DNA of 64,000 nt from Arabidopsis thaliana (Eukaryota > Streptophyta > Magnoliopsida > Brassicales > Brassicaceae). The stretch is from NCBI RefSeq assembly GCF_000001735.4, contig NC_003075.7, positions 9,921,001 through 9,985,000 on the forward strand, in the 5' to 3' direction. Below the pieces are notes generated by a model. It worked only from the letters and a program-made list of their open reading frames with translations. It was not told where the DNA came from and searched no databases. Of this stretch, positions 1,751 through 57,177 are shown one piece after another (positions within the stretch are counted from its first letter, which is position 1; every line of letters begins with the position of its first letter). The translations under genes were made by a program, and so were the position numbers.

Positions 1751-1977
1751 TATGATTTTGAACAATCATGACTATGATCATATTGTTGTATCTAAAGAGG
1801 TGACACCATTATTTTCCTCTAAGAACACATATGACTTAAACGAATCTGATATTACAGAACATCTTTCTCAGAAGTAGATATATATTATCCATTTCTGTTC
1901 ATCATGATGGAAGAATATATCTTTGATTTCCATGGAAAAATGAATATAATTAGTTAATTACGTATTTACGTTTTTAG

Positions 1978-2966
1978 AATGAGGAGCAAATGACATCGTA
2001 TGTGCAGCATGATGGTGATGGCGATAGTGTTAAAAATGCAGAAGTTGCAGAGGCTATACTCAATGATAACAATGAACTGTCTCATATTGAGCGAGAAGTA
2101 TATAATGATTTTATTTTAATTAATTTAGCGGATATTAGCTTATGCATGTTATCGATATATGATGGTATATCAAATAATGATTTTGCAGATAACTGTTTGT
2201 GATACATGTGGTGATCAAGGATATGAATATTTACTTGTGATCTGTTGCAACTGCGGAGTTGGTGCAGAACATACGTAATATTTTTTGTCAACAATATACG
2301 TAACTTTTAACTATGCCATTAGATAGTAGCATTGTTTTTATATGAATATCTGTTATCATTTTTTTGTTATTGTAGTTATTGCATGATGGAAAAAATAGAT
2401 AAGGTTCCCGATAGTTGGTCTTGCTATGACTGCACTAAAGAGGTAGATGAAATGCGAGAAGAAAAAGGAAATGAAGAAACCAGCTCTAGAAAAAGGAAAG
2501 CAGATGCTGTTACTAATTTTTTCGAGGTAAATCCTTGAAAATTAACGTATTTATTGAAGGATTATTTGTTCTAGAACATATCTTAATTTAATTAAAAACA
2601 AAGACCACTAATAATTTGTTTATTTTTGCAGACAGCAGAAAAAACATCATCTCAAAGACAATTTGATTTGTTGAACACAGAAAGTTATCCTAAAATTAGA
2701 AATTTTGATTTGAACGTGGACCCTAACATAAAACTAGGTGAAATCTCTGGTATAGATATGGACAAAGTACATGACATAGATCTAAATAGGGATCCTAACA
2801 TAGAACTAGGTGAAGTCCCTGGTATAGATATAAACAAAGTCATGACATAGATCTGAATGTGGATCCCAACGTGAACATGTCCTTAGGTCATGCTTCATCA
2901 TTTGAGGCAGGATATTCAAGTAACTTTCAAGCTCAATATGCAAAGAAACCTCGCATGGATACATAA
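1978..2966 (+). pseudogene. Small AIPP2-like PHD-finger protein with DLNxxP repeats; frame broken near 3' end
   Basis: Exons 1978-2098, 2189-2274, 2376-2526 and 2632-2850 join in phase with GT-AG introns. Exons 2 and 3 together make a C4HC3 PHD finger: CDTC, CCNC, HTYC, then WSCYDC. This type resembles the PHD of Arabidopsis AIPP2/PAIPP2, which read histone marks in silencing complexes (family knowledge). The last exon holds DLNVDP and DLNRDP, the DLNxxP form of the EAR repression motif, within a repeat of about 28 codons. The second repeat lacks one A relative to the first (near 2840), giving a stop at 2848-2850. The next frame continues open with a third DLNVDP and ends at 2964-2966. The 5' exon is uncertain: an ATG at 1752 opens a short frame containing DLNESD, but its donor is not clear. 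It may be a short functional protein or a recent pseudogene; no gene name is recognised. Confidence 0.6.
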
Positions 2967-3697: not shown

Positions 3698-5337
3698 TTA
3701 GATACCACATTGTCCACCAGGTCCACCGAAGGTTAGCATCTCTCCACTTCGTATTTCAAACTCGCGATACCATACATCGTAACACTTTGGACTATCCACA
3801 TATTCCTCAAACTCGTTCGAATCAATATCTACTAGTCTTTTATCCTCAAAATACTTAAGTTGTTTCATGAAACATGCAAACTTGTTTCGATATCCTACTT
3901 GTCTCGGAAAAGTTCCTGCCCCCATAGGAGGGCTGATAGCTCCAGCTAACCCCCCTGTATATCCGCCGAAGAAAACTTGTGATACTCCTTGCATCGAAAA
4001 AATTTGATAGGGCCAATAGCCTATCAAGGTTTTTCTCGTCATCAATAACCAGTTTTTTGTTCTGGAATCCTGTATGATTGGTGTACATATATAAGTTCTA
4101 TATATAACCTACTAAATATTTAAATATATTTTGTTACTATATGTTTTTTACCTGACCGACGAGAAGATGAGCAGTGGACTGTCTTTTGCCTAAGACACTA
4201 ATTTTATTGTAAGCCATACCGGGGTAGATTGTCTTATGGACTTGGACATATCCTCCTCGACATAACACATTGTAGCATCCGTTTTGGTGTCGATTTGACT
4301 GTAATATATAAATAATAAGTACTTATTTGATAACTAGCACATCAAAAACGAAAGATATTAAAAGTCATTAAGCTTGACATTTGAATTGAAATATAAAGTA
4401 AAGATCACTTACTATCCAGTATGTTGTTAACCTTGGGCGATCATCTCGGTACAATCCTATATGCACCTAAAAGAAGATCAATTGTGCGATAAGTTCTTAA
4501 TTCGGCATATGATGATTCTTATGGACAGCTAGGTTTTGTAGTATACTTACTGCCCAACCAAATTGGATGCTGCTTATTACATCTTTTTCTCTGTGATTTA
4601 GCCAAATCCAAGCTTTACTAAATTGATTTCTCAATACTCGTGGTTTGTAAATATTGAAAACCGCTTGCGCTCCACCCCATATCTTTGTGTAATTCTCAAA
4701 TGGTCTAATAATTGCATACTAACCAAAAATAATTTATCATGTTAGTAAATTATATATAAAAAGTCGCAAAAACAAATTCTATAACTATTTTTAAAATACT
4801 GTAGTTTAACATCGTGGTTAAAATACTTACATGTAGATTGGCTTCTGTAATTATTCTATTCGGTTGGACAAAGTCATTAGTATAGTTAATTTGCGGTATG
4901 TGAATTGGTACTTGTCCTTTAGGACACCTTTCTTCTGCTTTACCAGTGAATAAATCTGATGTTTCCGGCTCCGTCGATACCGTGGTTTGAAAATCGACAC
5001 TTGGTCTCATCTAGGATAGAGACAAATAAGCACTTGATAAATAATTTTGATATGAAATTGTGTATAGATAAACTCATCTTTCTAATGATCATGAACCCAC
5101 ATACCTGGATTTGGTGATCTTTCATCAATGGATGTTGAAATGCAGGTTGCTTATAGATATCCACACATTCGTATTCTATTTCTTTCTGCGATAAACATTA
5201 GATATATGAGTCAAATTACATGCAAATAATGTATTAACTGAATATCGAAATTTTGTTTCTTTTGCTACCTGAACTGTTTGAGCAATGTGATAAGAACAAA
5301 GATATATGAAGATGTATAATAAACAGTACGAAGCCAT
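3698..5337 (-). CDS. Neprosin-domain (DUF239) secreted protein
   Basis: Seven exons can be read from the ATG at 5337 to the stop at 3698. The approximate limits are 5337-5269, 5187-5105, 5010-4831, 4719-4553, a short exon near 4487-4434, 4301-4152 and 4060-3698, all with GT-AG junctions. The protein starts with a hydrophobic signal peptide (MASYCLLYIFIYLCSYHIAQ). The activation-peptide signature ECVDIYKQPAFQHPL follows, then the neprosin catalytic domain with IWGGAQAVFN, IQFGWAV, GCYNVLC and a C-terminal GGPGGQCGI. Neprosins are glutamic, prolyl-specific endopeptidases (established for the pitcher-plant enzyme); activity here is inferred. No break is seen. By position it should be At4g17860, a member of the large Arabidopsis DUF239 family. 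Decayed related sequence lies upstream at about 6240-6385. Confidence 0.88.
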
Positions 5338-7578: not shown

Positions 7579-7708
7579 TTTCTTACTTTACCCTTACTAT
7601 TTAATATAATTCCATGTTTACCCTTCATCTTCCCTCTAAAATCCAACACAGAGAGATTTCAACGCTAAATAAAGAGAGAGAGAGTCTAAAAGCTCGTCGT
7701 CGTCTTCA

Positions 7709-7735
7709 ATGGTGAATCTCAAACCAATTGGATAA
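7709..7735 (+). promoter_or_regulatory. Eight-codon uORF in the PYR1 leader
   Basis: ATG GTG AAT ... GGA TAA encodes MVNLKPIG and ends 56 bp before the PYR1 ATG. It lies downstream of the likely TATA box, so it should be in the transcript. Any effect on translation is inference. Confidence 0.5.
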
Positions 7736-7791
7736 ATAAAACAAAACAAAAAAAACTTCACAAAAAAAAAAAAAAGATCCAAATTACAACC

Positions 7792-8367
7792 ATGCCTTCG
7801 GAGTTAACACCAGAAGAACGATCGGAACTAAAAAACTCAATCGCCGAGTTCCACACATACCAACTCGATCCAGGAAGCTGTTCATCACTCCACGCGCAAC
7901 GAATCCACGCGCCTCCGGAACTCGTCTGGTCAATCGTACGACGATTCGACAAACCACAAACATACAAACACTTCATCAAATCCTGCTCCGTCGAACAAAA
8001 CTTCGAGATGCGCGTCGGATGCACGCGCGACGTGATCGTCATCAGTGGATTACCGGCGAACACATCAACGGAAAGACTCGATATACTCGACGACGAACGG
8101 AGAGTTACCGGATTCAGTATCATCGGAGGCGAACATAGGCTGACGAATTACAAATCCGTTACGACGGTGCATCGGTTCGAGAAAGAGAATCGGATCTGGA
8201 CGGTGGTTTTGGAATCTTACGTCGTTGATATGCCGGAAGGTAACTCGGAGGATGATACTCGTATGTTTGCTGATACGGTTGTGAAGCTTAATTTGCAGAA
8301 ACTCGCGACGGTTGCTGAAGCTATGGCTCGTAACTCCGGTGACGGAAGTGGTTCTCAGGTGACGTGA
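7792..8367 (+). CDS. PYR1: Abscisic acid receptor PYR1 (RCAR11)
   Basis: Intronless frame of 191 aa with a START/Bet v 1 hormone-binding fold. All hallmark positions are visible: Lys59 (in YKHF), which contacts the ABA carboxylate; the gate loop SGLPA at 85-89; the latch HRL at 115-117. When ABA is bound, the closed gate docks on clade A PP2C phosphatases and inhibits them, releasing SnRK2 kinases (established). It acts in the cytosol and nucleus. The leader is CT/GA-rich and carries a short uORF at 7709. The next genes are MYC4 downstream on the opposite strand and the neprosin gene upstream. The length matches the known protein exactly and no defect is seen. Confidence 0.98.
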   Translation: MPSELTPEERSELKNSIAEFHTYQLDPGSCSSLHAQRIHAPPELVWSIVRRFDKPQTYKHFIKSCSVEQNFEMRVGCTRDVIVISGLPANTSTERLDILDDERRVTGFSIIGGEHRLTNYKSVTTVHRFEKENRIWTVVLESYVVDMPEGNSEDDTRMFADTVVKLNLQKLATVAEAMARNSGDGSGSQVT

Positions 8368-57102: not shown

Positions 57103-57106
57103 GGAA

Positions 57107-57177
57107 GGGCCCAACCGGGTTCGAACCGGTGACCTATTGATCTGCAGTCAATTGCTCTATCACTGAGCTATGGACCC
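57107..57177 (-). tRNA. tRNA-Cys (anticodon GCA)
   Basis: A 71-nt intronless cloverleaf. The acceptor stem GGGTCCA pairs with TGGGCCC (one T-G pair), D arm GCTC/GAGC, anticodon stem ATTGA/TCAAT with loop CTGCAGA (anticodon GCA), variable loop AGGTC, and TPsiC arm ACCGG/CCGGT with TTCGAAC. Internal box A (TAGCTCAGTGA) and box B (GGTTCGAAC) are intact. Confidence 0.97.

Follow-up and report, generated by a model that had tools for sequence, protein, structure and literature searches.

A small Arabidopsis thaliana PHD-finger gene with a repeated DLNxxP tail and a one-base loss: a possible truncated silencing adaptor or decaying gene

Results

The window, 64,000 nucleotides of Arabidopsis thaliana chromosome 4 (G000:C4:9921001-9985000), contained a small four-exon gene encoding an AIPP2-type PHD finger and a repeated DLNxxP motif, with a one-base loss in the repeat. 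This observation was confirmed. In all probability we are dealing with either a silencing adaptor that has been shortened or a gene in early decay, and not with a novel type of system; a working truncated gene was judged about as likely as a decaying one.

The gene lay near an open frame (7690-8367) that we take to be PYR1. A minus-strand Neprosin-domain gene (open frame 3698-4108; PF03080, E 8.2e-26) lay beside the PHD-finger gene, and the window also held a minus-strand tRNA-Cys (gca) at 57106-57177. The locus number of the PHD-finger gene is presumably AT4G17850, and no mention of this number was found in the literature searched. Judging by titles and the openings of abstracts, none of the papers found on AIPP2, on PHD, EAR and DLNxxP, or on the loci of relatives was about this gene.

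Gene structure and coding evidence

The first-pass annotation had proposed four exons. These could be joined at GT/AG sites (three of three introns) into a single 187-aa open frame from 1990 to 2850, with the splice sites taken from DNA, not RNA (Table 1). The introns measured 91, 101 and 105 nt and had an A+T content of 77-78%. The 561-nt frame remained open in 0 of 5000 first-order Markov sequences of equal composition, indicating that its openness is more than chance.

Codon scores came from a model whose training set consisted of 20 open frames from the same window, each 150 codons or longer (14,514 nt, gene status unchecked). The gene itself was not part of this set, since stop-to-stop frames that overlap the test exons reach 84 codons at most. 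The annotated frame had the top score in all four exons: 9.9 in exon 1 (1978-2097), 1.6 in exon 2, narrowly above the next frame at 1.2, 5.2 in exon 3, and 2.9 in the last exon (2632-2835) versus -11.5 and -6.3 in its other frames. Scores were negative in all nine intron frames and in all three frames of the 3' flank. A putative additional 5' exon, with donor GAG/GTGACA at 1800 and acceptor TTTTTAG at 1977, was considered and rejected: its splice phase suited, and its codon score (-0.8) gave no support.

Table 1. Features of the PHD-finger gene (window positions) and other AIPP2-type loci in the genome (chromosome positions)
Feature	Position	Strand	Remarks
Possible extra 5' exon (MILNNHDYDHIVVSKE)	1752..1799	+	phase 0 into 1978; codon score -0.8; doubtful
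Coding exon 1 from first ATG	1990..2097	+	frame open from 1978
Exon 2, first part of PHD finger (ITVCDTCGDQGYEYLLVICCNCGVGAEHT)	2189..2274	+	
Exon 3, remainder of finger (YCMMEKIDKVPDSWSCYDC) and basic stretch SSRKRKA	2376..2526	+	
Last exon, with two DLNxxP motifs	2632..2850	+	stop TAG 2848-2850
Repeat 1, 72 bp, DLNVDP	2707..2778	+	
Repeat 2, 71 bp, DLNRDP	2779..2849	+	shorter than repeat 1 by one base (near 2836-2842)
Third DLNVDP and former C-terminal tail	2850..2966	+	shifted frame, open 2814-2966
Other AIPP2-type loci	AIPP2, PAIPP2, PHD1 C1:16537666, PHD1-like C1:16548621, three at C5:24.58 Mb, one C5:2.566 Mb		

PHD finger and its relatives

The finger was a complete C4HC3 finger, as had been claimed, with eight of eight zinc ligands present (CDTC, CCNC, HTYC, and CYDC). 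Ligand spacing was that of AIPP2, except for one residue fewer ahead of the last CxxC. The finger was diverged, as seen from its score of 15.7 bits against the Pfam PHD model (PF00628), below the curated cut-off of 24. In a phmmer search of solved structures the top match was the BAZ2B PHD finger (E 0.00076), and the ATXR5 PHD finger was also matched (E 0.033).

A genome-wide protein search identified two nearest paralogs: C3:641778 (E 4.1e-7), which we take to be AIPP2, and C5:5471670 (E 6.1e-5), presumably PAIPP2. With the AIPP2 finger as query, the gene followed directly on PAIPP2 in the ranking, at 67% over 27 aa (E 7.5e-6). Identity of exon 2 over 28 aa was 64% to AIPP2 and 61% to PAIPP2. 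The intron that splits the finger after H-T had a position and phase common to the gene, AIPP2 and PAIPP2, and in five of five genes compared the acceptor lay three codons ahead of the first Cys. The earlier assignment to the AIPP2 type thus held on two grounds: AIPP2 and PAIPP2 head the list of genome matches other than the gene itself, and they share the finger intron.

Searches with the relatives' fingers revealed at least nine AIPP2-type fingers in the genome, including this gene, such counts being lower bounds. DLNx(x)P was found in none of the eight other AIPP2-type loci within frames of at least 30 aa in the stretches scanned, a scan that intron-split motifs escape and that may stop short of the far ends of AIPP2 and PAIPP2. 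The PHD1-like finger gene (G000:C1:16548621) was located approximately 11 kb from PHD1 and had a very lysine-rich tail. The minus-strand cluster at G000:C5:24579500-24589400 comprised three AIPP2-type finger exons, two of which keep the H3-contact Asp.

Histone H3 contacts

The modelled PAIPP2-H3 contacts described in the available text of PMC7718874 are: Val285, Gly292, Leu298, Ile300, Cys301, Asp306, Pro322, and Gly324. The same source reports that the D306K substitution abolishes H3 binding by PAIPP2. In the finger of the gene described here, with the register set from Cys301, the equivalents of Val285, Leu298, Ile300, Cys301, and Pro322 were retained; Gly292 was left out of the count, because residue 292 of PAIPP2 is Ala in our numbering and not the Gly named in the paper. 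The Asp306 equivalent was Val. The Gly324 equivalent was absent, beside a one-residue deletion, and its deletion as opposed to replacement by Ser hinges on a hand-placed gap. The finger had been called a chromatin reader, and this part of the first-pass annotation is weakened because the Asp306 and Gly324 equivalents are missing, though five contacts are kept. We infer, purely by analogy, that a role as an AIPP3-docking adaptor is better supported than a role in reading H3.

Constraint on the finger

Over 47 codons the dN/dS of the finger on this gene's branch was 0.34 (bootstrap 2.5-97.5%, 0.09-3.7), with values of 1 or more in 7.5% of 2000 bootstrap replicates, so that neutrality was not excluded. 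Purifying selection on the finger is likely by this estimate. Between the gene and AIPP2 or PAIPP2, dN was 0.32-0.33 over 47 codons and 0.25-0.29 over 28 codons; the corresponding values between AIPP2 and PAIPP2 were 0.07 and 0.03. The finger is far more diverged than AIPP2 is from PAIPP2, which counts against an adaptor. The frame loss itself suggests relaxed constraint and likewise counts against an adaptor.

DLNxxP repeat and one-base loss

Two DLNxxP motifs were in frame (DLNVDP at 2707 and DLNRDP at 2779) and a third (DLNVDP at 2850) was in the next frame, in agreement with the first-pass annotation. Motif starts were spaced 72 and then 71 bases apart, and the third motif falls in the next frame because repeat 2 has 71 bases as against 72 in repeat 1. 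The missing base corresponds to the codon pair GTA CAT of repeat 1. As had been proposed, this loss removes the third motif: it leads to the stop at 2848-2850 and cuts off the motif together with approximately 42 C-terminal residues, sparing the finger, the basic stretch and two motifs. The cut-off tail (2836-2963) had a codon score of 1.7 and no stops, while the other frames had three and four stops; a 42-codon tail was also open in 607 of 5000 Markov sequences, and openness alone is weak evidence.

Differences between repeats 1 and 2 were unevenly placed. Within the D, L, N, D, and P codons four of four differences were silent, whereas outside the hexapeptide five of five aligned differences altered the residue; two further differences fell in a single x codon (V to R). 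With the x codon omitted, the contrast of four silent and no replacement changes in the motif with none and five outside it gave a Fisher p of 0.008. Across three copies, five of five minimal motif-codon changes were silent, with a chance of 0.0006-0.003 depending on transition bias. These counts are low, and the motif was selected post hoc; they suggest past selection on the DLNxDP motif.

A genome search with the 989-base DNA (common words skipped) matched only the gene itself, and a genome search with the 58-aa repeat found no copy besides the gene itself.

PHD fingers with DLNxxP at other loci

A Pfam PHD survey gave 150 scored matches from 303 candidates, of which the best 30 of 150 were scanned for DLNx(x)P over approximately 3.1 kb each, in stop-to-stop frames of at least 30 aa, a procedure that misses intron-split or distant motifs. 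DLNEIP was found in the finger's own frame at one of these 30 loci (C3:173571), which is presumably MBD9. There it lies shortly before the PHD finger in one 193-aa open frame, a second case of PHD and DLNxxP together in this genome. One other locus of the 30 (L031) carried DLNPVP on the same strand as the finger, in a 111-aa frame judged by eye to differ from the finger's own. DLNx(x)P was found in none of three further PHD loci (L008, L012, and L014).

Discussion

Proposed explanation and alternatives

The reading that we favor, while giving it somewhat less than an even chance, is that the gene is a diverged relative of AIPP2 and PAIPP2 in which an AIPP3-docking finger and an EAR-recruiting DLNxxP tail would form a small truncated adaptor. 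If expressed, the reference allele would give a 187-aa, presumably nuclear protein with a PHD finger, a basic stretch and two DLNxxP motifs. The finger and basic stretch would dock on AIPP3, a BAH protein, in the way that AIPP2 and PAIPP2 do through their PHD-PBR parts. The DLNxxP motifs may recruit TOPLESS or SAP18 as EAR corepressor, together with histone deacetylases; EAR proteins are reported to interact with both TOPLESS and SAP18 (PMC6283911, in its available text). The protein could then act as a small adaptor linking H3K27me3-bound AIPP3 to deacetylation. The gene structure, homology, motifs and frame loss are seen in the DNA, and from them we infer expression, location, AIPP3 binding and corepressor binding. 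The analogy for AIPP3 docking is as follows: PHD1 lacks the H3-contact Asp yet is found with AIPP3, and the PHD-PBR part of AIPP2 and PAIPP2 is described as indispensable for AIPP3 interaction (PMC7718874, in its available text).

The adaptor just described competes above all with a recently broken gene, in which a base was lost from the last exon and the finger and motifs are the remains of a gene drifting to a pseudogene. This is a serious possibility, about as likely as the adaptor. The one-base loss with the downstream frame still open, a finger lacking two of the modelled H3-contact residues, a dN/dS bootstrap range that includes 1, and the lack of any literature mention found of the presumed locus number all accord with decay. 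However, no further disabling change was seen: splicing signals are intact at all three introns, as are the frames of all four exons and the full set of eight ligands, and the finger, basic stretch and two motifs escape the truncation. The first-pass annotation had gone a different way, proposing a self-contained repressor; in such a protein the finger would read H3 unmethylated at K4 and the DLNxxP motifs would recruit corepressors. The conserved Val285, Leu298, Ile300, Cys301, and Pro322 equivalents and the two DLNxxP motifs fit such a protein, but the Val at the Asp306 equivalent, at a site where D306K abolishes PAIPP2 binding (PMC7718874, in its available text), and the absent Gly324 equivalent make it unlikely. 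Overall, the first-pass interpretation is partly supported, through the AIPP2 type, the two in-frame motifs and the one-base loss that removes the third. We consider it improbable, to a like degree, that the gene is a lineage-specific adaptor in which an AIPP3-docking, non-H3-reading finger is joined to a growing EAR array with a motif number that varies among accessions; H3K27me3-reading AIPP3 complexes would here be linked to TOPLESS/SAP18 deacetylation, and motif number would vary through repeat changes such as the one-base loss.

The two remaining explanations would restore the third motif or the tail, and both appear very unlikely. An error in the reference assembly, with the gene intact in the plant and carrying three motifs, would involve one base, and the open tail frame has the best codon score of three, though a low one (1.7). 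Base errors are, however, rare in the A. thaliana reference assembly. An exitron, that is, an intron within the last exon (e.g., 2810-2886 or 2738-2850), could bypass the stop and join the upstream frame to the tail. Within the last exon, eleven GT-AG pairs of at least 60 nt would produce one continuous frame reaching 2966; in three the donor is AG/GTGAAA or AG/GTGAAG, and exitrons have been described in Arabidopsis (PMC4484396, in its available text). Against this, many such pairs would probably arise by chance at this length, and no clear tract precedes the acceptors (6-10 pyrimidines in the final 20 bases).

If the truncated adaptor is expressed, direct recruitment of EAR corepressors by AIPP3 complexes could be tested with it in a minimal setting, as could the route by which paralogs with a PHD finger give up reading histones and turn into adaptors. 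If the gene is broken, it joins the numerous small, young genes in decay that a reference genome contains.

Comparison with known systems

AIPP2 (AT3G02890, PHD3) and PAIPP2 (AT5G16680, PHD2) resemble the gene in finger sequence, in the finger intron, and in the basic stretch after the finger (termed PBR in the available text of PMC7718874). Unlike the gene, they have a long N-terminal part (the PAIPP2 finger being placed at approximately residues 285-330 in the available text), a C-terminus that contacts CPL2 (PMC10693458, in its available text), the H3-contact Asp and Gly, and an apparent intron after the finger where the gene has none; no DLNx(x)P was found in the stretches of them examined.

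PHD1 (AT1G43770, MOM1 complex) has, like the gene, a single AIPP2-type finger, and its H3-contact Asp is also missing (Ile by alignment). It differs in the charged tail that follows the finger, and no DLNxxP was found in the stretches examined. According to the available text of PMC10338684, PHD1 co-purifies with AIPP3 and MOM1 in IP-MS, and tethered PHD1 represses FWA, an effect blocked in aipp3. PHD1 is thus placed with AIPP3 and MOM1 by published data.

A PHD and an EAR motif in one protein is already known. In HSI2/VAL1 and HSL1/VAL2 a PHD-like domain and an EAR motif are predicted in one repressor; as described in the available text of PMC4232687, these proteins differ from the gene in also having B3 DNA-binding and CW domains. 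Among rice DLN-motif repressors PHD is a prominent family, likened to the gene here through a family-level description, and only 14 of 266 rice DLN proteins have two motifs (PMC6479872, in its available text). Particular to this gene is that its finger is of the AIPP2 type and is joined to a tail in which DLNxDP is repeated.
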